A stretch of 64,000 nucleotides of DNA from Polychytrium aggregatum. Its lineage: Eukaryota > Chytridiomycota > Chytridiomycetes > Polychytriales. The notes beneath the pieces are model-generated. The model was not told where the DNA came from. It made no database searches and was given only the letters and a program-made list of their open reading frames with translations. Shown here in pieces: positions 3,401 to 61,038 of the stretch. A program made the position numbers and the translations under genes. Every line of letters begins with the position of its first letter. The stretch's first letter is position 1. The stretch is from positions 1-64,000 of the forward strand of contig NW_026516205.1 in the NCBI RefSeq assembly GCF_025602895.1, in the 5' to 3' direction.

Positions 3401-6400
3401 ATGCATCGCGGCGCCAAGCTAGCAGCCGCCAAGAGCAAGCTCCAACGGTTCCAGAAGGCCCGATTTGTCACCGCTGGCTCCTATGGTTCCCAGACGAATC
3501 TTTATGAGGGCTCGCTGAGCGAGGCAAATGCGTCGCCCTTGACCTCGTACGAAGGCACCCCTCGGCTTTCTGATGCTCCTGAGCCCACTTACTATGGATC
3601 GGCTCCTGACGACGCCCCTGAACATGACTATCCGACTTTGTCGGGCTTCAGTCGCTCGGCCGCCCCTTCCCCTCGGCAAGCGCCGCTCGAGCCTTTGTCT
3701 GGCCCACAAGACCCTGCTCGAGCCACTGCGACTTCCCAAGAGTATCATCGCTACCAAAGCACAGAATCTTCGTACGGCGGAGAGTCTGTGCCTCGGAATG
3801 AGTCGGCAACCGAGATCTCGATCGAATCAACAACTGCCACTCGGCTTAAGCTGTAAGTGCGACGCTGTCCGCTTCGTCTGTCCGGTTGCCTGTATGCCTA
3901 CTCGCCTGTATGCTTGCCCGCCTTTTGCTTGTATGCCTGCTGCTGCTCTTTGAGGTCTTGATTGTTTGCAGGCGATCGTCGATCCTAATCTGCCTCTGCT
4001 CCGCGGCCGTATATGACTGTCGACTACCGGATATCCAATCTCGTGATGGCTCGATCGCAGCCCTCCCCGGCCTCGATCGCAAAGTCCTGTAGGTATCAAA
4101 GCTCCCTCCAGTAAGCGAGCATCGACGCATATCCGAGTACTAACCTTTCAATTTGCAGACAAGGCGAGATCCTCCGGCAAAGTCCCCTGCGATGGCCTAT
4201 GCGTCTGAGTCCGAACCTGCCCCCGTCCCCGTCCCCGGCCCAACTCCATACTCCCCCGAACGCCGGCCTGAGGTACTGAGAGACGCGGTGGATACAGCGC
4301 ATTTGTCGGATCTGGAGCATTCCCCAAATCTACACCTTGTCTACAGCGAATAGCGGCAATCGCCACAGTCGGGGTCCTGACCTTTTGAATTGTGTCCTCT
4401 GGCTTCAGGAGCACCTGACTTCGGTCCAAGCCCACAATACGTACCTGTCGGTCATCAACGCTGATCTAGAGTCCGAAAGCTCTGAGAAAACTGCCCACAT
4501 TCGCCGGCTTGAGCAGTCCATTGTGCAGCTTTCTGCCGAGCAGCAGACCGCATCTGAGCGCATTCTGGATATGGCTGCGGAGCTTGTCCAGCTCCGAAAT
4601 GATTTGGCCGAAGCCCACCGAACTGTTGAAGTCCAGCAAGAGTCGCTCCAGCAACTGAGCGCCCAGCAGCAACGTATCCTGGAACTCGAGGAGAGCATAT
4701 CAGCCAGCGCGGCGGAGCGGCTCGATCTTGAGTCGCAGCTACAGGAGCGATGGACTTTGATCCAGGACATGGAGGCGGAGCTCGACCAGCTGCGCTCTGC
4801 TGTGCAAACGACACAGACTCTCAGCGAAGATGCGGATCGCAACAAGATCAATATGGAGCTGACAAACGAGGAGCTCGCAACTGCAAACGCTGCGCTCGAA
4901 TACGAGGTCGAGTCGCTAAAGAGCCAGATCAAGGAGATCCAGGCCCGTGACTCGGCTGCGCTTTCAAACTACGAAGACAGCCTGCAGCAGAGCCATACCA
5001 AGTACGATGAGCTGCAGGCCAGGTACGATGATCTGCAGGCCAAGTGCGACGGTCTGCAGTCGCAGCAGATTCTGCAGCAAGATTTGGCGCTTGAGCTGGC
5101 TGCTGCTCAAAGCAATGAAGCACAGCTTGAAAAGCTGCAGTCTTTAGAAGCCAAACTGCATGAAGCCGATGCCCGCCATACTCACGAGTTACGACGGAAT
5201 GCCGCCCTGCTTGACGAAAAGCAAACGACCCAGCAACAACTTCAGGAGTTTGGCAACAAACTTCTCGATCTACTTGCCGACAGCTCGCACACATACAGCG
5301 AAAAGTCTTTCCAGGCCTACCACCTTCTCCAGCAATATCTTTCCGAGCGTGGCCTTGAAGTCACTGCCGCGCTGTGGACGGTTCCTCTGCCGGCAGAGTC
5401 TGACTCCGCGAACGCGTCCAAACGTATTGAAGTACTCGAACACGAAGCCGCCCAACAGAGCCAAACGATCGCCCGATTGGAGGACACCGCCGGGGAAGTG
5501 CACGTTCTTCGCGAGCAGATCGATGCCCTCACCTACGAAAACAAGACGCTCTCTGCACATCTCTCGATCGAGTCCCAGAAGCGACTCGAATCTGAGATCT
5601 ACAACCAGTCTCTTCTCAGCGATCTGGAGCAGCTTCGACAGCCCCACACTTCCCTGGCGCCAAGAGCAGCACCCGAGCCCACACGTGCGCCATCCCCTAT
5701 TGCCCAGGGCGACTGGGGCATCGACGATGACCTCGATGCCCTCCTTAGCGACGAAGGTGCCGCCGACCACTCGACCAATGTCGACCACCCTGAGGAGTCT
5801 GCGCTCTCAGTGGAACCGCGAGCCGAATCGTCCAGCCAGCTGAACGATCAGCTTCGACAGTTACGCGAGCAAGTCATCGCCCTCGAAAAGTCCAATGCCA
5901 CTTTTGCGCTCGAGGGCGAGAGAGCCGCTCAACAGCTCGCGCGCGAGAGGCAGCTCCTTGAGGATGCCGATCGCGACCGTCGATCAGCCAATGAGAAGCA
6001 AATGCGGCTGCAGGAGGAGTCCTGGTCGCTTCAGCAACAAGTAGAGTCGCTTGATACCCATTGCCGCGAGATGCGGTCTCAGCTGGAGACCCAGGGGGCC
6101 AACTTGGCGCAGAGCCAGAAGGAGCTTGCCCGTGTTCGTGCGCTCCTCCGAACGCAATCCGAGCAAGCAACGGCGCACGACGGATATCAAGAGCAGATCG
6201 TGCAATACGAGGCCAAGCTCACCGAGAGTACCATCAAGATCGAAGACCTCGAGAGCGAGATCGCTCGTATCGACGCAGTCTTGGTTGAGGTTCAGGCACT
6301 CAACGAGAGCCTCGAGCGCCAGCTTGAGCAAGAGCAAACGGAGAGAGAGTCTGCTACAAACAAGGCCAACAAGATCAAAGCAGACATGTGGGAATTGGAG

Positions 6401-9400
6401 CAAAAGGTTGCCCAAGATTCTGCCGTCTTGATTGAGAGCCTGCATGAACTGACGGATGCCAACTCGAAGATGAAGGCCCAAATCAAGAGCTATCGAGAGG
6501 AAGTCGAGCGCCTGAAGCAAAGCATCCAGAGCCACCAAACTGAGCATGCCGAGACCCATGCCTCAAGCGCCGAGGAGGTTGAGCGACTCAACACCGTCGT
6601 TGCCGGTCTCCGAGAGACCATCAAGGAAAAGCTGGCTGACATTGCTCATCTCGAATCTGAAAACGAGTCGCTGGCAACGGCTGGTGCAGAGGTCACGGCT
6701 CAGCTTGGCGTGCTGCGCGGCCAACTTCGCGACATTGAGGCTTCTCATAACACTGCCCTGCTTCAGCTCGAGGAAGCTCAAGCGGAGGTTGCTGGTCTCC
6801 GTGACGACAACGAGACTTTGCGCTTGGCCGGAATCGAGGTCACCGAGAAGCTCTCAGCTCTGCGCGAGCAGTTTGAGCAATCGAACGAAGAGCGCCAGCA
6901 CATTGCCCAGCTCTACGAGACGCTGCGAGCGTCGCTCGTCCAGACCGAGGACCAAACCAAGATCCTGGAACAAGCTGGAATCGAGGTCTCCGAGCAGCTG
7001 AAGACAGTCCGTGAAGAAGCCACTTACATTCGCCAAGAGCGCGACGAGGCCATCGGAGAGCTTAGCCAACATCGTGAGCGTCTGGCCGAGCTCGAGATTG
7101 AGAACTCGACCCTGCGGTTGTCCGGTATCGAGGTCACCGACCAGTTGACGGTCTTGCGCGATGCACTCACTGGATCGGAGGACCAGTGCGCCAAGCTCGT
7201 TGAACAACTGAACGAGACCGCCCAGTCGCTCTCGGTTCTTGGCGGCGAAAAGGATCACCTGTGCGCTGAAGTTGACGATCTGACCCACCAGCTTGAGTTG
7301 CTCCGCGAACAGGCTCTGATATCGCAGTCCTCCCAATCCGAGATCGCTCTTCGAATCGCCGAGTTGCAAGCCAAGATCGACGCTCTCGAGAGCGAGAACG
7401 CCGCACTCCATGCTGCAAATGCCGACACTGCCGCGCAGCTCGCCATCGCAACCAATGAGCGCAATGACGTGATCGGGCAGCTCGAAGATGCCCATTCGAT
7501 GCTCCACGACCTGGAATCCAAGAACGAGGCCCTTCAGTCGGCCGGCATAGAAATTACCGAGCAGCTCGATAGCTTGCGCCGGGAGCTGCTCAGCTCGGAG
7601 GAACAGAACGAAGCTGTCGTGGCCGAGTGCGAGCGCCTGCGGCTGGCAAGCGAGGCCATAAGTAAGGAGCTCTTGGACAAGGATGTCGTCATTGCGGACC
7701 TCAGCAGCAAAATCCAGCATCTCCAGGAGAGCTACGATCTTCTCGAGCACGAGTATCGTCAAAAGATCGACCATGTTGAGACGATCGATCGTCAGAACCA
7801 AGGTATGCACTTTGAGCGGGAGGACTTGCAGGCGCAGCTCCAGGTTGCCCAGCAGTCGGTCCACAGTCTCGAGGAGCACATTCATGAGCTTGAAGCCGAG
7901 CGCAGCCGTCTCGCTGCCGAAGCGGCTGATGTAAGGCAGATTCTGTCGGCGGCCACATCCGAAAACGACCAGCTCCAGAAGCATATCGAAGAGCGCGAGC
8001 ACACCGTCACGGATCTCCGCAACCATCTTGAGTCTCTCCACCTGCAAAGTGTCGGCGATACCGAGCGTACTCATGCTCTGGAGCTCGAGCGCGAGGAGCT
8101 GTCCGCGCAGCTGCATGATGCTCAGGAAAGACTCGAGCGGTACATCCTTGAGACCGAGGCTGTTGTTGAGCAGCACCGAACCGAGGCCGCACAGCACTCG
8201 GACGAACGATCTAGGGCCCTCTCGATGCTTGAGCAGACGCAGCAGGATCGCGACGACACGATCGCAGAGTACCAGCAGCACGCCAAGGATTTAGAAGGTC
8301 AAATCGATCGGCTCAACCAGGAGTTGCACGCCATCAAAGACACTATGGGTGCGACCGAGCAACTCTTGGCCGCCAAAGTGGCTTCTCTCGAGCAGGAGGT
8401 CTCGGATGTCCGCAACGATGGCGACCACCATCGCGCTCATGCCGAGGAGCTCTCGGCGGCCCTGGAGGCGGCTGATCAAGCACTACAGCAGCTGCAAGGC
8501 GAGAGTGTCAAGTGGCAGGGCGAGAGAGACGCGTTGATCCGGCAGCTCGCCGACCTTGATGATCAGCTCACAAAGAGCAGCGCTCTTTGCGATGAGCTGT
8601 CCTTTGAGCGCGATCGCCTCGAATCCGAACTCCATGTTATCCGCTCGACCTCCGAAAACGATAAGATTCAGCAAGCCCAGATCCTGACGAGCCTAGAGTC
8701 GGAACACCGTGCTCTGTCGACCCAGGTGACCGAGCTTCTGGACCGCAACAGCCAGCTGGTTGTACAGAACGAGCAGCAGCACTCCGTTATCGAGGAGCTA
8801 CAACACGAAAGAGATCATCTCGCCGGGCACATTGAGGAAAGCGAGGATAAGGTGGGTTGCCGCTGTATGTTGAACGCCATTGGCTGCACTTGGTTAGTTG
8901 GCTACTGACAACCGTGTTGGTTCTGATCTTCAGATCCGTGTGTTGCACGAGACGAAGGGTCACGTCGAGTCCGAAGTCAGTGAATTGGCCTCTCGAATGG
9001 CCTACAACGACGGCCAGGTTCAAGAACTTCAAACGCAGATCGAGATCTTGATGCAGGAGAAGCTTCATGCAGAAAACTTGGCTGCTTCTTTGCAAGTCAA
9101 ACTCGAGGGCGTCGAGGGCTCGTTTGCGGACAACATGCACAAGGTCAACGACGAGCTACACCGCACGCTCGAAGACAAGATTGTGCTCCGCGACAGTCTT
9201 TCTCGGGTCGAGAGCGATTTGTTGATGCTCCGGCAGTCGTTTGCTCAGCTGGAGCAGGAGCGTGATCACCTTCGAGACTACGCCGTTCCGGATCTGTCGC
9301 ATCAGCTCGAGAGTCAGTACAGCTTGCTCACCCAGGAGCGCCAGTCGATCCTGATTGCCCTGGAGCAGCTCGGTGCCGTCATCCCGAGCGACATATCTGG

Positions 9401-33213: not shown

Positions 33214-36200
33214 CATGATTGGTGAGTCCCCGGAATCGCCCCCAATCGCCTTCCCCCATTTGCCTTCAATCGACCTCAATCACCTCCAATTGCCCTGAAT
33301 CACACTTCCAGCCGCCGCTTCCCAATCGCCCACAATCACCCTCAGTCTCCCCCCCCCGCCAATTGCTGCTGTCGCTGCGCTGCATTCTTTGCTTCAGTCA
33401 TGAAAGCATTCCGCATGCTCTGATGTGCGATCGCTGCAGAGTATCAAGCGCTGCGGCATTCGCTGTGGTGCTTATCCGTCATCGCTTTGCTGGCGTCGCC
33501 GTTGCCGTTCTCGGCTTGGGTGCTTTTGTGCATTGCTGACGCCTCCCACATCCTCAGTCCCGAACGATTCTTCCCACGACCACGACCAAGACCATCGGCC
33601 CTCTAATGCCAGTTTGCCGGCCACTCTGTCTCGGTCGGTGCGGGAATCGCCCTCCCCGTCCGTCCACCCGCGACTCCAGCGCCGCTTTTCAGAGCATATC
33701 GACCAAATTCACTCCCGCATCTCGCCTTATGCCTCTCAGTCTCTGCGCTCCTCGCATCAACGACCCACACAGCCCCTCGACTACTACTCTTCACATGGCG
33801 ATGACCGCTTGATGTCGCACTACAGCTCAGACCTTCCCGATGCTGCGTCGTTTGACTCATACAATCGCGACCTGGGCTCGTCGCTGCGATCGTCCTACTC
33901 CCACGACCTGAAGGCCTCCATCCATTCATACTACAGCGACTCAACAAACCCGCCACCCCGCCGAAAGGAGCTCGCTCCATCGGCCACGCTCGAGTCCATC
34001 TACGGCAGCACCTCGGATCTCAATCTGGCGCCGTATGGTTCCCTGGTGACTGGCGCCCCGGATCTCCTGGACGACTATGGCTACAGTCGCCCGGCCGTCC
34101 CAGGCGATGACCATCGTAGCTTCATCATCCACGACGATGCCGAGAACGACGCCGTCGTCGACTACGAGACTCGTCCAAAGTCACTCATTGAGCGCCTACG
34201 GCACCAATCCGAGATCTCAAATATGCAGCTGGCCGAGATCGAGCGGCTCGAGATCGAAAACACCAAGCTTGCCGAGCACAACGATATCCTGGTCGTGGAC
34301 CTGCAGACCAAGGACAGCGCCATCCAGGATCTCAGCCAAGTCATTGAGCATTTCAAGCGCGACATTGAGCACCTCAAGGACCAGCACCGTAAGATCGAGG
34401 ATACGAATATGGCTCTTCTCGAGAAGAAGGAAATCGAAATCGAAGCCCTGAAGGACGAAAATGACAACCTCACCATCCGAGTCATGGAGTCCGAGCGTCG
34501 CGCCTATGCTGAATCGGCTGGCTCGCGTTCCGCCGGCCCAGTCGGCGTTGATGGAGCCGACGAACTCGACGCTGCCGTCGCTTCTTCCTCGGATGTGGCT
34601 TTGGCCTTGGCACCAGAAAGCACCCTCACCAGCGACAACCACGAGCTTTCGATGAAGCTGCAGAGCTCCATTCTTCGCTACCGCGAAACGGTCGCTACTC
34701 GGGACGAGACCATCGAACTGCTCCGCCAAGACAACGAGCAGCTGATCGCCGAGTTGCATCGCATGCAGAACCAGCAGCCGCTCACGAGCGATTCACCCGA
34801 CGGCTTCAGTCGCGAGGGCATCATCGAGTCGATGCATCTCCAGATTGAGTCGCTTGAGAACGAGCTTCGCCAGGTGAAGGCCGAGGCACTCAACCTCATG
34901 TCGCAGTCCAAGTCGCAGTTTGCAGAACACCAAGCCAAGTTCCTGGCAAACGAAGAGGAGAAGCGCATCCTTCGCGACGAAAACCGGTACTATGCTCACC
35001 AGAACCAGCAGCTGAACGAGAAGGTCGTGTCGCTGTCAAAGTCCTTGAGGCACCAGACCGAGCAAGCTCTGTATGCTGCCTCTCAGGCCACCAGCTCATC
35101 CGGCCATGCTGCCTCGGCCTCCAGCGAGTACTACGCCGGCGCGCCCAATCTACAGCTCTCCATTGTCCAGCTTGCCTTGCAAGATCGCCCCTCGCGACCC
35201 AGCGAGATCGCCCTGTCGTCGTCCAATGAGCAGATTGCCTCGGAGCTGTCGCTGTTAGGCCCGAACGAATCGAGCCTCCTCGATGGGTTCGTCGATGCGG
35301 CTGGCGAAGACACTGTCGTGATTCGCGACGTGAACGCAAGCGCCGAGGAGATGGATTCGCTCTATGCCGAAGTCGAAAGACTGCGACACTCTGTGCAGAT
35401 CCACGAGGGCGAGAATCGTGCATTGCGTGCCGAGCTATTGAACCAGCTTTCGCGAAACAAGGACGACCGTGCCAACGCCCAAGCAGCGAAGCACGGAAGC
35501 AAGGACGAGGCCCGCGGCAAGGACAGAAAGATAGCCAAGCTCGAGGCTCGCATTGCCGAGCTCGAGGGCCAAGTCGATGATCTGCAAAGTGAAGTCCACA
35601 CGCGCTCCACCGAGGGGTCGGTCTTCTTCGAGGAGGCCGAGCGGCTCTCGCGCGAGGTCGAAGTGCATGCTGCTGAAAAGACCGCCCTCTCGGACCAGCT
35701 ATCAACAGCCCATCGTCTGCTCGAAGAGGCCGAGACCGACAGTCGGCAGCTCCGAGCAGAGGTCCTCAACCAAATCAACTCGATCAAAGACAGCCAGTCA
35801 GATATCGAAGCCGAGCGTCTGCTCCATCGGCAGTCCCTGCAGGAGCGCGATCAGAAGATTCAAGAGCTGGAGCGATCGCTGGAGAAAGCACATGCGCGAA
35901 CCGAGTCGTTGCAACTCGAGCTTAGGAGCGTCTCCCCCGACTGGTGCAGTCCCCTCGAGCTGGCCAAGTGGGAGAATGAAAAGGAGCAGCTCCTCGAGCG
36001 CCTCAAGACATCCGAAGAAAAGCTTGCGGAAATGCAAGCGATTGTCGTGGCGATCGAACGAGAAAAGTCCGTCCAGATCCAGGCCGCCATGGACGAGATG
36101 GAAGTGAGCCGCTCCAGCCTGCGCGGACAGATGCTCGAGACGGTGTCGGACTACCTCAATCGCCTGGCGGCACAAGAGGCCGAAAAGATGCGTCTTCAGG

Positions 36201-39200
36201 ACCGGCTCTTGGAAGCCGAGCGCAAATGCAAGCAGCTCGAAGTCAGCCTGGAATCGCAGGTCGCCAAGCTCAAGAAGCAGCATCAGAAGGCGCAGAGCCT
36301 TCTTGAAGTCAAGCACGAGCAGACTGTCCTACAGCTCGAGCACGAGCGACTCGAGTTTGAGCTGCGCGTCCAGCAGCTCGAGCTCTCCCTCGCCGAAGTC
36401 AGCGACATGCTCGCCGCCAAGAGCAACGAGCACGACCAACTCGTTGCCGCCCATCGAGACGCGCAATCCAGCTCACTGAAGGCCATCCAAGACATCGAAG
36501 CTGCCATGAAGCAGATTTCTGACGAAGCACAGACGACCATCAAGCAACTCCATCTCTGCGAATCGCTGCTTGAGGAGAAGGAAGCCCAGCTGTCGAATCT
36601 ACAGGAGCAGCACGCGCGTGATAAGGAGCTCGCCGAGATCCAGGTCCGTGAGGAGCTTGCCGCCGTCGTTACGAGTCAGTCAGAGCAGATTGGCAAGCTC
36701 AAGAAAATGGCCGAAAACGTCCTCCGGACTGGCCACGACGAACGCATCGCCAAGGACAAGGAAATCGCCCAGCTCAAGGACGAGGTGAGTGTGCAGTCCA
36801 TCGGCTGTGCTTGCGCATGTCTTGCGGGGTTGTCGTGGAGTGGCTCGGTGTCAGATCCCAGGGCCGTGCACTTGTGCGTCTCATTAATGGTGGCGGTATT
36901 TGTAGATCACTCGCCTCGGCCCATCGAACGACGCTCCCAATCCGGACGCTCTTCCCCACGTTCCTGCTCCGTCGGTCAGCCAAGACGACAGCGTCGACTA
37001 CAAGCTGCTGTGTAAACAGCAGACTCTTGAGCTGGAATCCCTCCGAACCGAGGTACATTCCGCTGCTGCCATTTTGCTCAGCTGGATCGATGTTGCGGCC
37101 GCTTCAGCCATTGTATTTGTCACAGCTGTGATTCATCGCGTGTTCTACTGCGTGAAGCTGATTTGACCGCTGAGCAATTGTATTCTCTCCGTCTATATCA
37201 TGCTTGTAGCTCAAATGCATCCAAAGCCAGACATCGGAGGAATCAATACCGCCGCGCGCCTTGGACGGCGCCCCAGTCGGTGTCGAGGTTCCAGCGTCCC
37301 ATGAGCCACTGGATCAATGTACCGTCGTCTCTGGTCAGGAGCGGCCTGTTCCTTCCGAAGCCTCCTCCGACATGTTTGCCCAGCTCAACACCCTCACCGA
37401 GTCCAACCGGGCTCTCAGCGTGGCCCTCCTCGATGCCCAGAGACGATACGACGAGGCTCAGCAAGCCGTCAAGGCCACCGAAGAAACCTCCAAGGGCATT
37501 GTCGACTCGTTCGAGAAGGAGATTGCGCTCTACCAGAACCTTGGCCAAACCCTGCAGGCACGCACCGACACTGTCGAAATGGAGAACGCTGCCTTGCGCG
37601 AGACGGCGCGCGCCCTCGAGGTCCGGCTCCGGTCCGCCAGCGAGCTTGCCGAGAGTCTGCAAATGCGTCTCACGCTCCAGGACTCGGTCGTCCTCAAGCT
37701 GAGCACACTCTCGGAAGAAAACAACAGACATATCACCTCTCTCCAAAATGCAGCCGATGCCCTCCGCTCAGGCCAGGACGAGGCCCGCACCTTGGTTGCT
37801 CTGAAGACCAGCGAGATCTCGCAGCTCCAAGTGCTGATCAAGAACCGCGAAGATCAGCTCGAGCAGCTTCAGACGTCGCACCAACAAACTCTTGCCGCGA
37901 TGGAGCAAACCTTGGGCCAGGCCACACATGCTGTTGAGGAGCGCGATGCTCATATCCAGTCTCTCGCAGCCGAGTGCGACCAGCTTCACGCACAGGTCAA
38001 GGCGCTCCTTGAAGCTTCCGAGGGAGTGAAGCACCGGAACGGTCTCTTGGAGATTGCCAACGAAAAGCTCAGGCTGGCGGCCGACAACGCCTCCCGGCGC
38101 ATGAGCGAGGTTGGCCAGCTTCATGGCCGCGAGCTCGCCGAGAAACAAGGTCAGATCCTGGAACTGGAGCAGCAGCTCGGAGCCCTGCTCCCGATGAACG
38201 CAGATCTCCGGAGCAGCACAACGATTTCGCGACTGCAGAGCCGGGTCGAAGAGCTGGCGCTTCTGTGGAACACCGAGCAGTCCAAAAACCAGGCTCTCAA
38301 CGAGCAAATGAGCATCATGAACGACGAGATTCTTGAGCTTGCCTCCAAGCACGAGCTTCATCTCGAGACCGCCCAGGCGAAGCAGGCCCTCGAGCAAGAG
38401 TTTATCGAAAGCCTGGATCTGATCCAGCACCTGGAGGTCCAGCTCAACGAGCTTCGGGCCCGACTCTCGACTACCGAACAAGGACAAGAGCAAGGGCCAA
38501 GCACCGACAATTGGCCAGCCTCGAGCCTCTCCTCTGCTGCGTCTATCCCTGGTGCCGCCGGGCTTGCTGGCACATCCGATCCTCCTTCGGGCGCCGTCTC
38601 AGTTACCCATCGCACGGCAGGCACTGCACGCGTCCCTCACTGTGGACCAAGACGCGACCAAGAGGACAGTCAATTTGGCGTCGATGTAGCCTCGAGAGAG
38701 ACCGCCGTGTGGCAACAAGCCCTCGAAAGCACAATCCAGAGCACCGCCCAGACTATTCAGCAACAACAGAGCGTCATTGCTGGCCATGAGACCGAGATCC
38801 GCGCTCTCTTGGCGCGCAATGACGAGCTCGAGCAGCAAGTGGCGTTCCTCAAGATGCAGAGTCAGGCTGCGGCAGAATGTCAGCAGACACAGGCCCATAT
38901 TTTGGCCACCATCGCAGAAGAGCGGCAGCAGCTCGAGTCGCAACTCGAAGCTATCAAGGGTAGAACTACCGGAAGTGCGGGTGCCCCGATCTCGGACGAA
39001 GAAAAGGACGAGCTCGCGGCCACGGTCAGGTGTCTCGCCAAGGCTCTCTCTGCCTCTCAGCTCCAGCTCGACGAGCTTCAGCATCAATTGGATCAGGTCC
39101 CGCAAGTACCGTGCGCTTCTGAGCCCGAGACCGTCGCTGCGTGTGCCGACGCCGATGCTTTGAACGAGCTCAGCCAGGCAAATCAAGAGATCCACAGGGA

Positions 39201-40188
39201 GCTTGAGCAAGCGCAGCAAGCCAACACCTGCTTGGCCCAGGAGCTCGAGGAGCTCAAGCACACTACTGTCGGCCTCGAGCTCCAGGTTGCGCAGCTCCAG
39301 AAGCGCATTCGGTCCAAGGAGCGGCAGGAACGATCGCGCATCGACGAGTTTGAGCGTGTCTTTGCGGAGCTGAATGTGATGATGTGGCAGCTCGAGAACG
39401 CATCGTCTCGATGGCGCCAGCTCAGCGGAAGCGTCCAAGTTCCCGAACACCACCGGTTCAACGACCATCACCATGAGTCCGACGCAGCCTGGAAACAAGA
39501 CCAGCACGGAGCCGATGGTGGTGCGGATGCGCCGATCGCAGAGGAGCCTCTGCACTCGCCCGTGTCGATGCCGCGCAAGGAACCCTCGGAACTCGAGCTG
39601 GTATCCAACATTGCCTTCACGGATGAATATTCGTCGTCCGAGGGCCGTCGCGGCGTTGTTTACGTTTCTCCCTCCGAAATCACCGATACGCCGTCGGTCG
39701 ATGCGCCAACCGCGGAGCAGTACGACGGTGTCTTGCAGAGCTCGTCCCAGTTCAGCCATCGACTCAAGATGATCCTCGACATTCTTGAATCCAACGAGGA
39801 ACAGCGGCGCCGAGAGACGCTCAATCGCGAGCACTTTACCGATCAGATGGCGGACGAGCTCAACCGCATCCAGGGCGAGATGGCCCAGATGCGCAAGCTG
39901 CTGATGACCAAAGAGATGACCATCGAGCGGCTGCAAGCGATCGTCCAGCGCGAGTCCGATGTCGCCGATAACGCCGTCAAGGCCCGCGATACAGCCATCC
40001 GAACGCTTCAGTCGGACCTGGCTCGTGAGCTCAGCCGCTCGGCACAGGCGATTGCCGCTCAGGACAAGATGCTGCAGATGCTGCGGGATGCCGGCGTGAC
40101 CGTCGGAATCCACCACTTTTTCGCCGACGGCGATGAGGACACCGAGCCTGGCGACTCCGAGTCTGCCACCTCCGAGCACCCCGAATGA
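33214..40188 (+). CDS. Large coiled-coil protein, 2112 residues, family not recognised
   Basis: Four exons in phase: 33214-33220 (ATGATTG), 33558-36784, 36906-37052 and 37231-40188 (6339 nt). The start could instead be the in-frame ATG at 33179, adding 12 residues. About the first 220 residues are disordered and rich in Ser, His, Tyr and Pro (for example DYYSSHGDDRLMSHYSSD). From about residue 230 to 1950 the protein is nearly continuous coiled coil rich in Glu, Gln, Leu and Ala. A Ser/Gly linker lies near 38,510-38,640 and a Pro/Asp-rich insert at 36,906-37,330. The C-terminal 200 residues contain a short helical region and end in an acidic tail (DGDEDTEPGDSESATSEHPE). No motor, PACT, GRIP or other anchoring domain was seen. 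Together with the PACT gene it suggests a scaffold at a microtubule or Golgi structure, but that is inference. Confidence 0.85.
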
Positions 40189-43557: not shown

Positions 43558-44093
43558 GGCTGAGGGGGGCGAGAGTCTGACAGAGGGAGCTGCTGCTGGG
43601 TGATGGCCGCCAAAGCAGCCAGGTCCGAGCCAGCGCAGGGCGAGACGGAAACAGAAACGGACCAACTGCGCAGTCGGCCAGGGCGAGGGCATGTGTTGGC
43701 ATCTGACGAAGCAAGCCGCCTGCGCTCCAAAATACCCAGCCCCAGAGTCGCCGTGCATCGATGACGTAGACAGTCAAGCCTACGACCCTGCGGACTCTAC
43801 CTTTCGATCCTACGAGAACTGGCCCTTACAAATATTGTCAGCGACTGCGGAGCTTTAACCCCTCACTCGGTTGTCAACACAAACCGAGGACCGGACTTAT
43901 AAGCATCCCCCTTTTCCCTCGAGAGAGGACGATACCCTCGTTTTTACTCCTCATTCACTTACTTTCTTATCTTAAGTGGATTATCCTCTTTCGCCTTGGG
44001 CTCATGATTGTTCATGGGAGCACCTAAGACGTGACCATCGATGTGCTTTTGGCAAAGCATTTGGATGCAACGTGGTTGTTGCGTCCACACCTA
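43558..44093. other. HOP2 upstream region, then 3' flank of the interrupted gag relic
   Basis: The HOP2 promoter should lie at the left. At the right end, read on the minus strand, the bases next to the transposon continue the gag zinc knuckle (G-x4-H-x4-C part of the CCHC pattern), so at least 44040-44093 belongs to the retroelement. A matching pair of LTRs was looked for and not found. Confidence 0.55.
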
Positions 44094-44119
44094 CACTTTA
44101 TTCAGAAAAAAACGGGACA
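44094..44119 (+). repeat. Left terminal inverted repeat of the Tc1/Fanzor element
   Basis: Reads CACTTTATTCAG followed by a run of A and CGGGACA. It matches the reverse complement of the right end at CA, AT, CA and the final 13 bases. TA precedes it. Confidence 0.8.
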
Positions 44120-44191
44120 ATATAGCCGTTTCCATGAACATGTAGTATGTGCTGTGCTTGCGTCAAGCAAAGCCACAAGAAATAAAACAGA
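44120..44191 (-). ncRNA. Candidate guide-RNA scaffold (fRNA/omega-RNA-like) region downstream of Fanzor ORF
   Basis: By analogy with IS200/IS605 TnpB and characterised Fanzors, the guide RNA scaffold is expected to overlap the ORF 3' end and run to the element terminus, with the guide read from flanking DNA. Here only about 98 bp separate the stop from the end, TIR included. Part of this stretch is also kept in the relict at 14171-14333. No structure was computed. Confidence 0.35.
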
Positions 44192-46564
44192 TCACTTTGG
44201 CAGCCTCCGAGTGAACACCACCGGTCGCTCTCCGGTCTCCACAATCGACTTGCACACTATGATCATGTTGCGCGCCGCATTGACGTCGCGATTCCACACT
44301 GTCTGGCAGCTGGGATTCTTGCAGCTCCTGACAAAGTGGGAATTCGCAACGCTGGGCGCATCGAGTTCTTCCAACCGAACTGGCTCCAGGCACTTGGAGC
44401 ACACTTGCGAGGTGTTGAACTCGTTCGTCGAGGCCACCTTGACGCTTCCGTGAGGGTGAGTGGGACGGCGTCGGTGGTGCTCGAACTGCTCAAAGTACTG
44501 AGCAAACCGCTGCCTCCGAGGGCTGGATGCATAGCCCTTGCCCTGTCGCCATGACGCATTGCCAAAGGCGATCACCACATCGGTCCGTATCGGGGCGTGC
44601 TTCAGGACGGCCTTGCACATCCTGTCGACGGCCACTTGGCGTCTCTTGTGGCCTGTGAAGCGATGGTGACGGGCCTTCTTGCCAAGGTGGAAGTCGAGCT
44701 GCACTCGCAGCTCCGGTCGCAGGACATGGGTGAGATGGACCTTGAAGGCCTCCGAGGACGACACCTTGGGCGAGGGAGTGGTCGATATCCAGGTCTCGAT
44801 GCTGAGTCGATACTTCATGGTGTTGTGCCACTTGGTGTTGGACGTATGGCCACACATGTGCTGGTAGTGGGCATTGGAGAATGAGACCACCTCGTCTTGG
44901 TGGCCCGGTGCTTGGATGACCGCCGTGAAGATGGAGCCGACTCCAGGATCGATGCCAATCCAAGTGGTACGGTTGGGGTCTGGGTCGCCGATGTGGGCCT
45001 GGATACGCTGCTCGGCAGTCGGAGGAGGCTCGGAGGTCTCGGTGCGATCGGTTCGAGGCAGAAACTTGACGAGACTGATGGTGCATCCAATGCCATCGGT
45101 GCTGATCTCGTAGTTGAACAGCTTCTTGTTCACGTCCCGTTCTTGGAAGAGGGAACTACGCAGCTTGAAGCAACTGCGCCAGAGACGATCCTGGTTGTTG
45201 ACACCGTCCTCACCTTCTTCCTTGAGCATGTCCCTGGTGAGTCCAAGACGATGTTCGGTGTAAAGGAGTTGCCAGAGTGCGACGGTGTCGATCTTGACAT
45301 ACTTGGCCCTTGCAGTGCATAGAGGAACTATCGTGCACACGGCCGGAGGAGTGTCGACGGCGAGCTACTTGAGTGCCCACTTGAGCCTGGATGCCAGCTG
45401 GTTGATCTTGGCCTTGGTGGTGCCGAGCTCCGACTTGGCCGTGGTGAACCTCTTGTCGTCGGAGGGGATGCCTCGGGCAGTGAGCTCGTCCAGCTTGGCC
45501 TGGCGCTGCAGCTCGGTGACTCGGAGGGCGGGCATGTCACAGTCGATCCACTTGTGGACATTGTCGACCATCTTGTCTCGGGCGAGGATTCCCACATGGT
45601 GTGAGAGGCGATGGAGGGCCCGGAAGCGGTCCTGGTCGCTGCTGTACCGAAACTCGTCCAGGACGTGGCCAAAGTCCGGGTAGAGGAACTCGAGATCGGC
45701 CTTGGGTGGAGTCTGCCCTGGTTTCTCGAAGAGCTCGAGACAGGCCTCGATGGCTTCGTGCTTGTGCTTGTTGGCTGGGAAGACGGCAGCGCAGAAGCGG
45801 CGAAGGAGTCGCCAGTAGGCCAGGTCGAGGTGGGTGGTGCAGTTGGTAGCATAGGCATTGACAGCCAGTGTGAGAAGCTGACTGTGAGCACCATCAGGCA
45901 GACGAGGGGCCGGAGGCAGGTCTGCATGCCGAGTGGTCTGGTAGTCGCGAAAGGAAGCGACCAGATGCTCGTTGTATTTCTTGGTGTCCCTGGCCGTCGA
46001 GAGGGCACCAGCCTGGACGATCGTGAAGCATTGGCGGATGAAAGCAGGGGTGGACTTGGAGATGACGGGGACGGGAAGATCCTGCTCGATGCACCGGAGG
46101 ATGTGCAGGTTGAGCAGCCTGGATGCCTCGAACTGGATCTGGGTCATGGCCTCGACGGTGGCCTGGATCTTGTCGCGGAGAGCGGGATTGAGACAACAGC
46201 CATCCATCGTCTGCTTGAAGCAGCCGAACTGAGGGGCGGATGACCTTCCATCCACGAGTGGGACGACAGAACTCTTGAGGGGCCGGTATTTGGGACACTT
46301 GTTGGTGTTGCAACGTTCGTGGTCGGTACCGTCGCACTGGCGACATCGCTTGCCGGTACTCGAGGAAGTAGATGGACCAGGCTCGGTGGGATCGACATCC
46401 ATTGGATCTGCAGAAGCAGTGGTGGTGAGCAACGGAGCAACAGAGAAACAAGCATGCGTGGGGTCAGAATACGAACCAGAGACAGGCTCCGACTGTGACT
46501 TGGCTTTCTTGGGCCTGGGTGGCCGAGGCTGGCCATCACCGGCACCCTTGCGCTTCGGAGGCAT
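44192..46564 (-). pseudogene. Fanzor RNA-guided nuclease (eukaryotic TnpB homologue), ORF broken by one in-frame UAG
   Basis: A 790-codon frame read from ATG at 46564 to 44192, interrupted only by TAG at 45367-45365 (codon 400). The N-terminal half has a basic NLS-like start (PPKRKG...RPKKAK), a Cys-rich knuckle (CRQCDGTDHERCNTNKC) and a long helical region. The C-terminal half is the RuvC nuclease: IGIDPGVGS carries the first Asp, FGNASW stands where a canonical TnpB Glu would be, NEFNTS supplies the alternative Glu seen in Fanzors, CSKC...CKNPSC is the zinc-finger insert, and NRDVNAARN carries the last Asp. Nuclease residues are therefore all present. Possibilities are a nonsense-inactivated copy, readthrough, or two proteins from split frames (an ATG in phase lies at 45340). 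I found no plausible intron removing the stop. Confidence 0.88.
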
Positions 46565-46766
46565 GGGGGCAGAGGATGCTGGATGCCTGCCAGTGGTACT
46601 GGTCAGAGCAGAGACGCTTCTTTATCGTACAATAGCGCGATGATCAGATCAAGGCGAGATGAGGGAAGAAAGCAGCAGGACGAAGGTGCGGCATTTATAC
46701 CCGAGAGCAGGAACCCGTCTGCGCGGGCTGGTTGGAAGTGACCCTGTTCAAAAATCGCCGAGAGGT

Positions 46767-47618
46767 TCAAGCCAGGGATTTGAGCGTGAAAATGGCGGCG
46801 TGATTGGGGAGCTCAACCCCAAATTGGAGGAACTCAACCCCAAAGAAGTTCTCGATGGGATTGAAGTCGGGCGAGGCAGGTGGGGTGAAGATCACTGACC
46901 ATCCTCGGCGCTCGATGCAGTCCAGGACAGCCCTTGTCTTGTGCATGCTGACATTGTCCATCACAATCACAGAGTCGTCTGGGAAGGTCGCTCGCTCAAA
47001 GAACTCGACCATCGAGTGTGTCTTGAATGATGTGGGGATGTACATGCGATGCAGCACACCAGAGTGGTTGATGGCAAATGCAGCCGAGACAGACTTGTGT
47101 TTCATGTGATTGCGCTGGCGAAGCGGAGCACCCTTCGGCGAGTATCCGTAGAGAGGGAAAATGGATCTCCTGATCCCTGTCTCGTCGACAAAAACGAATC
47201 GCCGTGGGTCGATGGAGCGGACCTGGTCCCTGAACTGTGCCACTCGCTCATCCAGTCGCTTGGACTTGTAGAGGTGTGTTGCCCTCTTGTGTGAGAGACC
47301 TGCTCGGTGGATGGCAGTGTGGCAGAGTGAGAGTGATACTTTCCTCTGGAGGATGGACTCGAGCTTGCATCGCAACACAGGACCAGTCTGGAACGGGTCC
47401 TGTTCAATCAGGGTGCGAATGACTGGATATGCCTGCTCGAAGAAAGTGGATCTGCGAGCTGGGACCCGGGATGGGTCATCCAGCTTGCATCCTCGGTGCC
47501 ATCGATGGATGGTGCTCTTGGATACACTGAATATGGAGGCGACCTTACGCAGGCTATGGATGAGGGCGTAGCATCGCAATGCGGCGGTGCGAAAGTCGGA
47601 TGTGTGGCGAATGGTCAT
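46767..47618 (-). CDS. Tc1/IS630-superfamily DDE transposase (DD34E)
   Basis: A 283-residue frame. The N-terminus has a helix-turn-helix (about 22-42: RKVASIFSVSKSTIHRW) followed by a second DNA-binding region. The catalytic triad is Asp145 in FVFVDETGI, Asp221 in VIVMDNVSMHK and Glu256 in SPDFNPIENFFG, with 34 residues between the last two, the Tc1 spacing. It encodes cut-and-paste transposition acting on the flanking TIRs. The C-terminus ends only 27 residues after the Glu, short for the family, and contains a 21-bp imperfect tandem duplication right after the catalytic motif, so the tail may be altered. It is the first gene of the element on its coding strand, 84 bp from the right end. Confidence 0.92.
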   Translation of the reverse strand: MTIRHTSDFRTAALRCYALIHSLRKVASIFSVSKSTIHRWHRGCKLDDPSRVPARRSTFFEQAYPVIRTLIEQDPFQTGPVLRCKLESILQRKVSLSLCHTAIHRAGLSHKRATHLYKSKRLDERVAQFRDQVRSIDPRRFVFVDETGIRRSIFPLYGYSPKGAPLRQRNHMKHKSVSAAFAINHSGVLHRMYIPTSFKTHSMVEFFERATFPDDSVIVMDNVSMHKTRAVLDCIERRGWSVIFTPPASPDFNPIENFFGVEFLQFGVELPNHAAIFTLKSLA

Positions 47619-47676
47619 GGCCAGCGCGCGATAACACTGGGTAACAAAATATTCGATGAATGATCAAAAACCCGGG

Positions 47677-47702
47677 TGTCCCGTTTTTTATTGGATTGCC
47701 TG
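47677..47702 (-). repeat. Right terminal inverted repeat of the Tc1/Fanzor element
   Basis: On the minus strand it reads CAGGCAATCCAAT, then A-run and CGGGACA. It ends at the TA at 47703-47704. Confidence 0.8.
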
Positions 47703-48035
47703 TAAAACACTTGAGCCCCTTGTTGTGTTTGGACTTGTCACGGGCTTTCCATTGGAAAGGAGAGCTTGGTCACGGGGGTGGATCTCTTGGATTTCCACTT
47801 GGTTGGTGTACTTGGATGGGGCCACTTGAGCGAGCTTATCGAGGACATCTTCGGGTTCGGTCTGTTCATCGACGTTTAAACCCATAATGAACGAGTTAAC
47901 ACCAGGGTTCAACCCCAGGAGGTAATATTGGATCGCTTCCATTGAGGAAATGTTGACACCAGCCGAGCGGGCAGCATGTTCCGCAATTTCATTGGGACCA
48001 CGAGTGGATCCGGAGGAGGATCTCGATGCTACCAT
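47703..48035 (-). pseudogene. Retrotransposon gag-like relic split by the Tc1/Fanzor insertion
   Basis: About 110 residues from an ATG at 48035. The text includes MEAIQYYLLGLNPGVNSFIM and a helical region like LTR-retrotransposon Gag. The last residues before the element shift frame, and in the shifted frame they give the first half of a C-x2-C-x4-H-x4-C zinc knuckle whose second half lies beyond the element at 44093 and below. There is no pol sequence in the window, so this is a fragment. It looks like a fungal retrotransposon, not a virus. Confidence 0.65.
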
Positions 48036-55244: not shown

Positions 55245-58200
55245 CTACACTTCCATCGACGTGCCCGCAGAGGCCGAGTCCAGCTCCTGCTGCGCGAGGA
55301 AGAAAAGCTCAGGGAAGGCGACCTTCTCCTTGCTGAGTAGCTCCTCAAACTTGGGGTTCGAGAACGGATCGTGGATCTGGCTGAGGATGAGCACCGTCTT
55401 GCAGGCGCTCACGGCTGCCTCCTTGATCTTTTCAATTTCCTGCTTCACGGCATTCTCCTTGGCCTTGGTCGTGATTGTGGCACGCAGGGCATCAACGGTA
55501 TCGTCCAGCCTCTGTGCCATGGCGGTCGGGGTCAGAGTCGCAAGCTTCTGCAGAATCATGTGGCACAGGATCTTGACGTCATTCGAGGCATCGCTCAGGC
55601 CGATCAGCACGACGTTGAGGAACTCGTAGATCTCGAGCTGCTGCAGGCAGGTGTCTAGGAGCGTGTGCATGCACTCGAAAGCGCTCTATGTGCCGTCCAA
55701 AGGTAATACGATGTACTTTCAGCAAAGGTTCAGCAGACTTCCAACGCAACAATCGCAGGACCCCCCTCTGTCGACCGCCATACACCATACACCGCACACC
55801 ATACACCGCACACCATACATCGCACACCATGCGCCGTCGGGCATTCGCCATACCTTGCGTGTCTCCAGTCCGTCATCCACAAGGTGCTTGAACGGGCCCA
55901 TGATGACCTCGCGAATGAGCTCTTTCTATCTTGGCATCGCCATGGGTGGCCAACCGTCAGCGCCAAAACAGAAAGGCACCAGGTTAGTTTGCGAATCGCG
56001 GCGAGTCGAGTTTGTCTTCCGCACTCCAGAGCCAGATCAATCTGCCACGATTCACACTCCGGCTCGCCATCCTCTTGTTCCTGTCGTAGAACCGACATGC
56101 TCGCAGACAACGACCAGCACGCCATCCGATACAATCTGCCAGACAGCCCTCATCGACACGGCCCACACTTGCCTTCACAACAGTCTCTTGGTAGAGCAGC
56201 TTCAGCAGCTCCTTGAGCGACTCGCCAAGCAGATGCGGCTTGTTGTGCGCTACCAGGTTGAAAGTGCTCAAGGCAACCTTTCGGACGTTCTGGGTGATGG
56301 CGAGTTCGGTCCAACGTCAGTCTCGAGCAACGATAGCTGTGTCGTCTTGCCAGACCCCCATTCCCGGCCGTTCAAATTGCTCACGGTCCCCCCCCCTTCA
56401 ATTCTGCTCCCTAGCCTATCCTGTGGAGACACTCATACGCACCAGATCCGGATCGCGGACAAGAGTCAAAAAGTCAATGAGAATAGGCTTGAGCATCGCC
56501 TCATACTCGTCGTGCTCGTGATGGTCGGTGAAGATCCAGCGAATGGCAGCCACGACAGTAGAGCGGATGTGTGGGCTCTGGCCGGTCAATCGAGCTTGCA
56601 GCTTGGGAAGGTACTTGACAGGATCGATCAGCGACAGCTTGCCCAGGCACGCCGCAATGATGCTTCGGGTGCCCTCTTCGTGCGTGGCCTCCGTGTTGCT
56701 GAACAGGAGCTCCCAGATTTCGTCAATGTACTCCTGAAGGGCCGTCTGGGAGCGAGCCGAGGTAGAGAACGTGATCGTTTCCTTCAGAGAAACGAGCAGG
56801 AGGTACTGGCTCTTGCCGCCGTCGCGGATACCCTGCAGGATTGGCGGAAGGTACTTGGGCAGGTTGCCAACGGCGATGTTGCCAAGGCCAAAGGCGGCCG
56901 CGTACTTGATCTCCTCTGAAGGAGAGCTGAAGTAGCCGAGGAAGGTGTCGGCCACGTTCGGGTACAGGGTCGAGATATCGCTGGGAGATGCAGGAGGGTC
57001 AGCAACGTCGGCGGACAGGTGCTGTGCCACTTGTTGAGCTTGGAACCCATCCATCCACCCACCCATCTACCCATCCACCCATCTACCCATCTACCCATCT
57101 ATCCATCCCAACAACGGCCCTTTGGTAAACTCCTTACACTTGTCTGCCGATTTCACCCAGGCACAGGAGGCTGAGGTGTCGGACGTGGTCGCTCGAGGCC
57201 CCGTCTTCAACCTTGGCCACAAACTTCTGGATGAGAATGGCAGGCTGGGACGTCGAGCCGGACAGGATCGCAACTGATTTGGCGATCGCAAAGTAACCCT
57301 ATGCGAGAATTGAGCCGATGAGTCAATCGTCTCTGTGTCTTTCGCTACAGAAAGCGAGCAGGGCGTGCTTGCAACAGGGAGCGCATTACCATACCTGCTT
57401 GGAGATGCGAGACTGGGTGCTCTCAAACACAGGTTCGACCAGCAACGCAATCGATTTTTCCGCGATCTGTGGTCCGTACGCCGTCGAGAGGCTGCCCCAC
57501 AGCTTCAACAAGGCATCGAGGCCGGCGCCGGCGCTCACCAAGTGGGGCGTGTCCGTGATCACGGTGATCAGCGGCGGCAAGATCTGCGCCTCCACGACAC
57601 TGACGAGGCCGTGCTCCTTGGGGCTGAACAGCACAATCGAGCAGAGGGTTTCCATGGCGAGAGGAATGATATGCGCATCCGAGTCACTGAGCAGCGGTCG
57701 GAGCTCGTTCAGGATCTCTTGGTAGGACTGCAGCGAGATCTGTGCGCCATAGACGCGCGCAATCGACTCGAGCGCCGCCAGGCTCGAAACTCGGAGCTGG
57801 CGCTGGGTCTTGCGCAAAAAGCCCACAATCTCGGCAATCATTTGGTTCAGGACGGGCTCGAAGCGGAGAGGCGACTTGTCTTGGGCCGGGGCCACCAGAG
57901 GGCTATCGAGAATGACCTTGATGCCACGGACCGTGACCAGGCGGGTCAGCTCGTTCTTGAGGCGGTCGAGCAGGAAGGGGATGGCCTGGGTTGTAACGTC
58001 GTGTTCGGGGATGAGATCGCCAGCTTGGGCCAGCAGCACCACGAGTGCATTGATGGAGCGCTCCTTAACCTCGAGGTCCACGTCGGTGCTCTGGAGGCGC
58101 TCCATCACCACCGTGTAGAACTGGTTGGCATAGCCGGCGGCTGTGCTCGACGGAGCCACTCCCTGCAGGAGCTCGGTCTTAGGTCGCAGAACCTTGACAA

Positions 58201-61038
58201 TCTCGATCGTCACCAAGAGCCCCTCCGAGCGGATCTTGTAAAAGGGATCCGACAGCGTCTTGATGACAAGAGCTACGAGCTTGGCCAGATGTGGGCTGAA
58301 AACCTGGGGCTCGTGGGTCATCAAGAGCACGCGCAGACAGCCGAGCGCATCGATCCGGAGGTTGGAGGTGGTGGCGGTCTTGACCACTTGGGCGTGGGTG
58401 CACGACGTGCTGATCACGGGGATGAGCGCCGAAATGTGGGCTTCGAGGCCGCCCTGGAGCGTGGCGACAAGCTCCTTGAGCAGATTGAAACCAGCCAGAC
58501 GAGTAGGAATGGACTTGCTAGACAGCTGGCGCAGGAGATGCTTGTTGAGCGTGGGCAGCTGCTGCTTGAGAGTCTCGGTCAAGCTGTGTTTGCAAATTGC
58601 AGTGGATAGGCGTACGCGGAGTTGGAATGGGGGGGGCAGTGTGTCAGCAAGGAAGAAAACAGTATGCGCTGCACCAACTGGCAGTGCCGAATCCAGGATG
58701 CACCGATCGTTACTAGCCAGGGCGTGGAGTCATGCCGTGGTTCATCCAACGACCAACGACCAACGACCAACGACCAACGACCAACGACCAACGACCAACG
58801 ACCAACGACCAACGACCAACGACCAACGACCAACGACCAACGACCAACGACCAACGACCAACGACCAACGACCAACGACCAACGACTGACGATCACACCT
58901 GGCCTGCTATCCATCGAGGCCACACGACTGCCACTCACCCAGTGTTGGCCGAAATGGCCGTCTTGCGCGACAGCGTAACGCCCGTGACAATGCCAGTCTG
59001 CTTGACGAGCACCGTCACCGTGTTGATCACATCGATGCGCACGCTCTCTTCTCGCTCGCCAAAGCGTCGGATCAGCGGCAGCAGCGCCACCGAGTAGATC
59101 GTCTCGAGGATCTCTGTCCGTGTGGAGATGATCGAGCCCAGGAGCTTGGCCGAGGCCTTGCGGACCTTCCAAGAGCGGTCGTCGTCGTCCGAGTAGTCCT
59201 CTTCCTCCCTGCAAGGCACCAAGCATATCAAACTTCGTTCAGGATACAGATACACCAGTGGGCGGCTCTGAGGGCCTATCGCGATATTGCCGATGCTGCC
59301 GATGCTACTGGGCGCTTACTCCTCCTCTTCTTCGTCGTCTTCGTCGACATCCATCTCCTCGTCGTCGTCATCCTCATCATCGGTGCCGGCATAGTTGGGA
59401 TCGTACTTGATGTTGACAAGGGCGGTGCTGATCACATCGGGAAGGAAGTCGGTGATTTCGCTTGGGCAGCGCAGAACGAAGGATTCGAGGGTCTGGTAGT
59501 GGCCACGTTATACATGTCAACGCCGTGCAGGCTGGCTGGGTACGTTCTGGGAGACGCCGACCCACGCATGCAGCAGCAGCAGCAGCAGCAGCAGCACAGA
59601 AGCAACACCGACACTGTATCAACATGGCAGAGGTTATACCTGAAGGCACACTTCGCGCAGATCCTCGTCGTCATGTTGAATGAACTGCAAAATGATTGGT
59701 ACAAACGTCGACAGGTGGGGGCCTAGGCGCTGGGGGTCATAGCGGCTGCAAACAACATCAGTAAGGACGTCGGGTGAGCCAGGGGCAAGCAGCGGGCTTT
59801 GGAGGGGGGGGGTACAGATTTTGGATACCGTCGCTCTTGGAGATACCCTTCCGGTGTCCGATGCCCACTCCTCGCCGCTGGACTTACCTGAGCGTGCCAA
59901 CGCATCCGACAAAGGTCCGGATCTGCTCGGCGTTCGAGCCCTTGGCCTCCCCGGTCAACGAGTCCCGGATGTACGAGATGAAGTCGACAAAGATCTTGTC
60001 GGAGGCGGTGGTGACCAGGATGCTGATGGCAAGCGTGCTGCGCTTTCGGACAGCTGGGCGGTTGTGACGAAGCAGCGGGATCAGCGTCTCCTTCACAGCG
60101 CCCTGCAGCTCGGTCTCGCTGGCGACGATACTGCCGAAGCGGGTCAGGATCTCGATCACGACATCGAGGTTGTCGATCTGGACGGTCTGGTTCTCCCTGA
60201 GCAGGGCGAGGAGACGAGGCATCAAGCGCTTCACGATCGTGACGGTGACCTGGGCATCGGGGGCCAGCTCAACAATCACTGTTTTGATTCCGATGCCGGC
60301 AATGTCGCGCAGGTCCTCGCTCTTGTCGACCATCATGGCGGACATGCGATCGACAATCTCGATGACCTGGACCTCGCGGACCTTTTTGATCAGAGGGCCA
60401 AAGCTGGCACCGGACCAAGAGATGAATGTTGTCAGTGTCGATGGAGGGTGAAGGAAGGGGAGTATCCCCACCAGGCCAGCTGTCGGGCGAGGTTTTCGGG
60501 TCGTCCACGCACCCGATCAGCCCCTCATCGCCGCTGATACCCGATTCCTGCAGCATCGGGCGGCAGCAAAGCGCAACACACTCGCCGTCGCTCGCCACCC
60601 GTTCGTTTCCTGGCCGCCAACAGCACGTACCATTTAACAGCCAGATTCTGGACCTCGCCGTTCTTGTCCTGGAGAAGCTTGAGCAGGGCGTTGACCATCT
60701 TCTTCTCAGATGCATCGTCGAGCGAGAAGGACGCTTTCTGGAGCTCGGTGATAAAGTCATTGGCGGCCATGTATCGAAAGTCAGAGTCGCTGTTGCTCAT
60801 CTGCAAGGGACAGACATTGTGAGTTGGAGAGTCGCCGGAGACCGCTGCTTCGGAGTGGATCAAAGGCACACTGGCTCTCCGACACCTCGCTCTCCAAGAT
60901 ATCGTGCAACTCATGTTGCTCCAGCTGCCTGCACCGCCGTCCCTCCTTCCGCCCGCTCCTCCATCCCTCTCCTCTGCGTTGCTCTAGGCTGACCTTTTCC
61001 AAGAGCCCAGCGACCCAGTAGGCTGGATTCGACGACAT
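55245..61038 (-). CDS. CAND1: Cullin-associated NEDD8-dissociated protein 1 (CAND1/TIP120)
   Basis: HEAT-repeat exchange factor that binds unneddylated cullin-Rbx1 and swaps SCF substrate receptors. Twelve exons, all in phase, total 3798 nt (1265 residues; human 1230): 61038-60994, 60800-60631, 60403-59888, 59745-59640, 59492-59320, 59208-58939, 58583-57395, 57298-57138, 56980-56443, 56289-56173, 55925-55854, 55685-55245. Landmarks are [16 protein letters not shown] with [12 protein letters not shown] (N-terminus), the acidic loop [15 protein letters not shown] (exon 5), [82 protein letters not shown] and the TIP120 end ([32 protein letters not shown]). Intron 10 uses a GC donor (GCAAGT). Identification is very secure. 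Confidence 0.97.
55778..55832. repeat. Short degenerate repeat in CAND1 intron 11
   Basis: CATACACCGCACAC-like units repeated about four times between exons 11 and 12. Confidence 0.75.
58746..58887. repeat. Heptanucleotide tandem array, about 20 copies, inside CAND1 intron 6
   Basis: CAACGAC repeated almost perfectly for about 140 bp within the 355-bp intron between exons 6 (ends 58939) and 7 (starts 58583). Confidence 0.95.

Follow-up and report, generated by a model that had tools for sequence, protein, structure and literature searches.

A doubly damaged copy of a high-copy Tc1/mariner-type transposon with a Fanzor1-like gene in Polychytrium aggregatum, and a predicted target motif for its nuclease

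A 64-kb stretch of the Polychytrium aggregatum genome (GCF_025602895.1, contig NW_026516205.1, positions 1-64,000), hereafter the window, carries at 44094-47702 a TA-flanked element in which a Tc1-type transposase gene accompanies a gene for a Fanzor, an RNA-guided nuclease. The locus raises the questions of whether this copy is the complete transposon proposed in an initial annotation, and of what a Fanzor may do in nature for the element that carries it. The window copy is defective in both genes and is therefore not a complete element. It is best explained, with good confidence, as a non-autonomous copy, damaged twice, of a Tc1/mariner-type (DD34E) transposon that is present in high copy number and carries a Fanzor1-like RNA-guided nuclease, which would work as proposed below.

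Structure of the element and coding state of its family

The borders, 3,609 bp apart and flanked by TA, had been called exactly, as is seen both by direct reading and from the ends shared with other copies. The features of the window copy are as follows.

44094..47702, no strand: whole element, 3,609 bp, an internally deleted copy; ends common to other copies, flanks varying
44092..44093, no strand: left TA, target site duplication; TA in 37/37 non-redundant copies
44094..44121, plus strand: left terminal repeat (Fanzor 3′ end, 'RE'), from inverted-repeat search, copy alignment and genome-wide end search
47675..47702, minus strand: right terminal repeat (transposase 5′ side, 'LE'), from the same three sources
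44192..46564, minus strand: Fanzor gene, one frame of 790 codons interrupted once, by an in-frame TAG at codon 400 (45365-45367)
46767..47618, minus strand: transposase open reading frame (ORF), 283 amino acids (aa), DDE_3 1.2e-21 (Pfam, above cut-off)
46821..46835, no strand: internal deletion of ~130 bp, marked by an interruption, at query 2728/2742, of the alignment to full-length copies

The inverted repeats claimed for the ends are present as 20 nt of 85% complementarity (44100-44119 / 47677-47696), but they are subterminal, starting 6 bp inside the ends, and the outermost 6 bp are unlike between the two ends of the element. Transposase and Fanzor are both encoded on the minus strand, in agreement with the common orientation first reported. 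The DD34E assignment of the transposase is borne out by D145, D221 and E256 in the relatives, with 34 residues between the last two; together with the TA duplication and the terminal inverted repeats, this spacing places the element in the Tc1/mariner superfamily (DD34E). The window transposase matches its relatives over residues 1-266 of 310 only (46821-47618), the remainder being a changed tail past the internal deletion; the match stops at residue 266 because ~130 bp present in full-length copies (~3,740 bp) are missing here. In a full-length relative, the transposase matches DDE_3 at 5.7e-22 and HTH_23 at E 0.0014, the latter under the curated cut-off. Comparison of the transposase with solved structures gave no match at E 0.01.

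The TAG splits the Fanzor frame into two window pieces, 45365-46564 and 44192-45229. The C-terminal piece contains a Cas12f1-like_TNB domain above cut-off, with scores of 36.3-38.4 bits for the window copy and a relative against a cut-off of 26.3 (Pfam). Alignment of copies places the catalytic triad at D539 (44/44 copies), E715 (43/44) and D760 (44/44), with DPG at 539-541 and E715 six residues ahead of the zinc-finger C722. As given in PMC10711439, the published Fanzor fingerprint combines DPG with a glutamate placed six residues ahead of the zinc finger. The protein departs from the search expression in that source, as its DPG-to-E spacing is 173 residues rather than 120-160, and its second zinc pair is CxxxxC, 22 residues on, rather than CxxC after 12-18. 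The identification as a Fanzor follows from the RuvC D-E-D with DPG and the glutamate before the zinc finger, and from the TnpB/Cas12f-like C-terminal domain, while only the size and the pairing with a DDE transposase suggest placement in the Fanzor1 subgroup. One copy (L028) has K for the catalytic E, which raised the possibility of a catalytically dead Fanzor population; as this concerns 1/44 aligned copies, the idea was dropped.

The reading of this locus as a Tc1-type element with a Fanzor thus stands with respect to type and ends, and fails with respect to completeness. Both ends and both genes are recognisable in the window copy, as would be expected of an intact transposon that is potentially active and has a functional Fanzor, but the stop at codon 400 and the lost transposase C-terminus make that state of the locus highly improbable.

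The wider family was searched in the 64.7-Mb assembly (418 contigs), where 40 copies, drawn from a larger candidate set, were scored at ~95-96% identity over the main match. Most of the 40 start and stop at the same bases within unlike flanks, the aligned ends having TA ahead of CACTTT at the left and TA behind CCTG at the right. The two outcomes that the initial annotation had named as refuting its reading, similarity ending elsewhere and the two genes never co-occurring, were thus not seen. Among non-redundant copies, the TA duplication is present at 37/37 left and 33/34 right ends (one reads CA). With up to 3 mismatches allowed, 316 left and 418 right ends were found genome-wide, and a chance origin of these ends is excluded because reversed-pattern controls gave 0. 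Four copies (L018, L020, L052, L065) adjoin ends of other TA-flanked elements with similar end sequence, the TA being shared or adjacent. A search for other paired ends in the fetched sequence yielded only ends resembling the same group, and hence no Fanzor-free Tc1 control was found there.

A Fanzor ORF of at least 790 aa is present in 30/40 copies, the window copy being among the 10/40 without one, and a transposase of at least 310 aa in 10/40. Both ORFs are full in 8/40, with an altered catalytic residue in one of the eight. When the N-terminal half of the Fanzor was matched, 77/104 scored matches fell within open frames of 790 aa or more and contained no stop. Ratios of nonsynonymous to synonymous change (dN/dS) are 0.32 for the Fanzor and 0.28 for the transposase (37 copies, broken ones included). 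No close relatives in viral contigs were confirmed by a single-sequence search, which reaches close relatives only.

Mariner elements in which a transposase and Fanzor1 occur together were described in 2013 (PMC3627910), and the window family is therefore a further member of a published type. PUl-1 and PGv-1 in that account likewise combine a Mariner-like transposase and Fanzor1 on one TA-flanked element; they are likened here by description, and PGv-1 differs as a single-copy element with a third gene, whereas the present family is very numerous (PMC3627910).

The one-sided flank and the candidate guide-RNA end

The flanks of the family follow a rule on one side. In 34/34 scorable non-redundant copies, A follows the right TA (or, in one, CA), and exact right ends genome-wide read TAA in 173 cases and TA with another base in 6 (173/179), a count that takes in homologous contigs, so that the ends are not all independent. 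The background frequency of A after TA is 167/1,358 in the window and 100/764 in the fetched flanks. Six copies were dropped before the flank count: L015, L035 and L038, each with a left flank identical to one already represented, and L019, L027 and L044, in which the right end was altered or could not be located (L027 and L044 by hand). Twenty further loci, 11 of which are complete short derivatives and a few of which are one site on two contigs, have TAA at 19/20. Read in the direction of the Fanzor, the 5′ flank is TTA; the T rule is limited to this side, and the left side has no such rule.

A measured parallel exists in Spizellomyces punctatus, where the Spu-1 element keeps CA before TA, in ghost copies too, and the target motif (TAM) measured for its nuclease SpuFz1 is CATA (PMC10432273). 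Spu-1 and SpuFz1 resemble the present family, as far as described, in having a Fanzor1 in a multicopy TA-flanked Tc1/mariner-like element, ghost copies without ORF, and further conserved bases next to TA on the side of the Fanzor 5′ end (PMC3627910, PMC10432273). They differ in that Spu-1 is ~2.1 kb with one ORF and no transposase, that its extra bases are CA and not T, and that SpuFz1 was first described with 633 aa against 790 aa here; activity was shown for SpuFz1, whereas the present evidence is from sequence. Because CA and TA in Spu-1 form the measured CATA, and because TTA stands at the Fanzor 5′ flank here, TTA is predicted to be the TAM of this Fanzor, composed analogously of one extra base and the TA duplication.

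SpuFz1 has its guide RNA at the 3′ end, and a counterpart is proposed by analogy. Three features of the window copy are relevant to this layout.

47703..47705, minus strand: right TA duplication plus one A, reading TTA on the minus strand, the predicted TAM; A third in 34/34 scorable non-redundant copies
44094..44194, minus strand: candidate scaffold of the guide RNA, spanning the stretch between the Fanzor stop codon and the end of the element, proposed on the model of SpuFz1; retained by 11/11 short derivatives
44072..44091, minus strand: predicted guide of the window copy, in host flank beyond TA, from the element-end position and the SpuFz1 layout

By this analogy, a guide RNA crossing the left end of the element is expected, in line with the initial annotation. 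In each of the 11 complete short derivatives examined (11/11), no less than 165 bp remain at the Fanzor end and 97 bp at the other end. Among 14 end sequences of the window family (family A) and a second, short family (family B, below), 1/18 predicted pairs shows a compensatory change, which is suggestive only.

Homologous contigs and insertion surroundings

The joined flanks of 29 loci (12 + 8 + 9) were searched for second contigs; in allele typing, 40 of 87 candidates were scored in the first batch and all candidates in the other two (24 and 20). A second contig with the same site was found for 16/29 loci, and two pairs with identical flanks (L027/L035, L052/L053) bring the two-contig sites to 18. 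For the remaining 13/29 loci, the window copy included, no second contig was found. Empty alleles were seen at none of the 29 typed loci and at 0/18 two-contig sites, each of which has an element on both contigs.

The two versions at a site are often unlike. Eight pairs were compared (L014/L015, L021/L076, L027/L035, L030/L077, L032/L038, L033/L078, L036/L079, L041/L080), and, with gaps set aside, the elements differ at 717/25,361 positions (2.8%) against 12/7,945 (0.15%) in the flanks, a contrast of ~19-fold. The elements of seven long pairs differ on average by 2.8% at the same site vs 4.0% between different sites, and the site partner is the nearest copy for 7/14 members. One pair (L027/L035) contains a diverged ~2-kb tract inside otherwise identical ends. 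Several of the eight pairs have different internal deletions in their two versions. Copies seem to have been overwritten by gene conversion, unless the repeats are misassembled.

The window insertion lies in or beside a 115-aa ORF (47688-48035, minus strand) that has no Pfam match and that presumably resembles a retrotransposon gag fragment. Two paralogous places (C399, C384), with 87% identity, span the window junction without the element, and their TA reads TG. Elsewhere in the window, 57386-58321 (minus strand) encodes a CAND1-like HEAT/TPR repeat protein (TPR_CAND1 1.4e-27), and three very long ORFs, 4571-8908, 33812-37015 and 37372-40188 (all plus strand), have a coiled-coil-like appearance; 33812-37015, the one of the three that was scanned, has no Pfam match.

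A proposed role of the Fanzor and competing explanations

In the proposed mechanism, the element would enter TA sites through cut-and-paste transposition by its transposase. Transcription from the Fanzor 3′ end, at the left of the window copy, would produce a guide RNA that runs into the host flank. The Fanzor and its guide RNA would recognise an empty site in which TTA stands directly before the guide-matching sequence, and would then cut it, after which repair from the element-carrying chromosome would restore or copy the element. Derivatives that lack the Fanzor ORF still possess the guide-RNA end, and a Fanzor encoded by another copy could serve them in trans.

A more tentative proposal, considered possible but doubtful, is that the Fanzor acts as a homing drive. 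The empty homologue would be open to cutting by the nuclease, and so to receiving a copy of the element, only where the insertion happens to lie beside TTA, and repeated break and repair would overwrite resident copies from other loci. Under such a drive, TTA would be expected at nearly all surviving insertions because only TTA-adjacent ones would be copied, and unlike element versions would be expected inside near-identical flanks because break and repair would overwrite the copies. The lack of empty alleles would be weak support on its own, since old insertions would be shared too. A comparable drive is that of TnpB of IS200/IS605 in a plasmid gene drive, likewise a transposon-borne RNA-guided nuclease that cuts element-free insertion sites, so spreading or keeping its element; that system is bacterial and its drive was shown by experiment, whereas both the cutting and the drive are conjectural here (PMC11870625).

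Several results weigh against the main explanation given at the outset. The fold of the candidate guide RNA is no better than that of shuffled sequences (z -0.25 for 167 nt, -1.76 for 101 nt), and a well-folded guide RNA was accordingly rejected. Non-coding diversity at the Fanzor end, 0.027, is no lower than at the other end, 0.028, although the intergenic part is higher at 0.052. Comparison with solved Fanzors at the sequence level yields no significant match (SpuFz1, E 0.069 and 0.58). The left flank is not wholly random, as the base outside TA varies there with C in 15/37, above background (P 0.003). In family B, the rule is looser than the 173/179 of the window family (Fisher P 7e-14, among matches listed), the base before TA at otherwise exact left ends being T in 22, A in 18, G in 3 and C in 2. 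These counts were made on contigs up to C396, from 100 of 237 places listed (one-mismatch class to contig C396). Family B elements (L068-L075) are ~265-290 bp long and retain the right end together with the final codons of the Fanzor gene and the opening codons of the transposase gene, with no Fanzor ORF in the copies seen. They demonstrate that families may differ in the extra base, and do not decide between Fanzor and transposase. At three family-B places (C223:320672-320946, C223:766218-766489, C325:15530-15801), two of which may be one site on two contigs, both ends carry the same inward-reading sequence, the adjoining outer base being T at one and G at the other.

That the extra T instead reflects a target preference of the transposase, with the Fanzor a mere passenger unrelated to it, appears rather unlikely. 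The T rule is almost as strict as TA itself, as a mechanical demand at insertion would make it, it extends to derivatives without a Fanzor ORF (the 19/20 loci, including the 11 complete short derivatives), and family B has a related rule. Against this, Tc1/mariner transposase acts as a symmetric dimer, so that a one-sided rule would fit a directional Fanzor better than the transposase complex. The three inward-facing family-B places, taken from positions only, differ in the outer base at identical end sequences, and the same kind of extra bases in Spu-1 belongs to a measured Fanzor TAM (PMC10432273).

For the differences between homologous contigs, assembly errors in repeats offer an alternative to gene conversion that is given a real but minor chance. 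Frame-breaking Fanzor gaps occur in 3/4 second-contig copies fetched whole (L076, L077, L079), differences thin out towards the element ends, within range of reads that extend into unique flank, and assembly may separate contigs precisely where elements differ. The differing positions do not resemble random errors, however, since both bases are present in other copies at 618/702 of them. Element lengths differ by at least 20 bp at 10/18 sites, up to 307 vs 3,601 bp, and one family-B pair, which is short (286 bp), has zero differences inside the element. The contigs are also distinct, as pair flanks carry differences of their own, both in the 12/7,945 counted above and in further stretches (2 in 1,200; 2 in ~1,900 aligned).

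Two points are added here to the published type, namely the prediction of TTA and the disparity in divergence between flanks and elements; no claim is made that TTA is absent from print. The family unites more than 100 Fanzor copies, many with open frames, with homologous contigs, with a transposase carried alongside the Fanzor, and with derivatives free of a Fanzor. TTA provides a concrete motif prediction that is testable by one assay. The one-sided target rule, combined with versions that match in site and mismatch in sequence, is a genomic signature that could separate homing drive from simple transposition.

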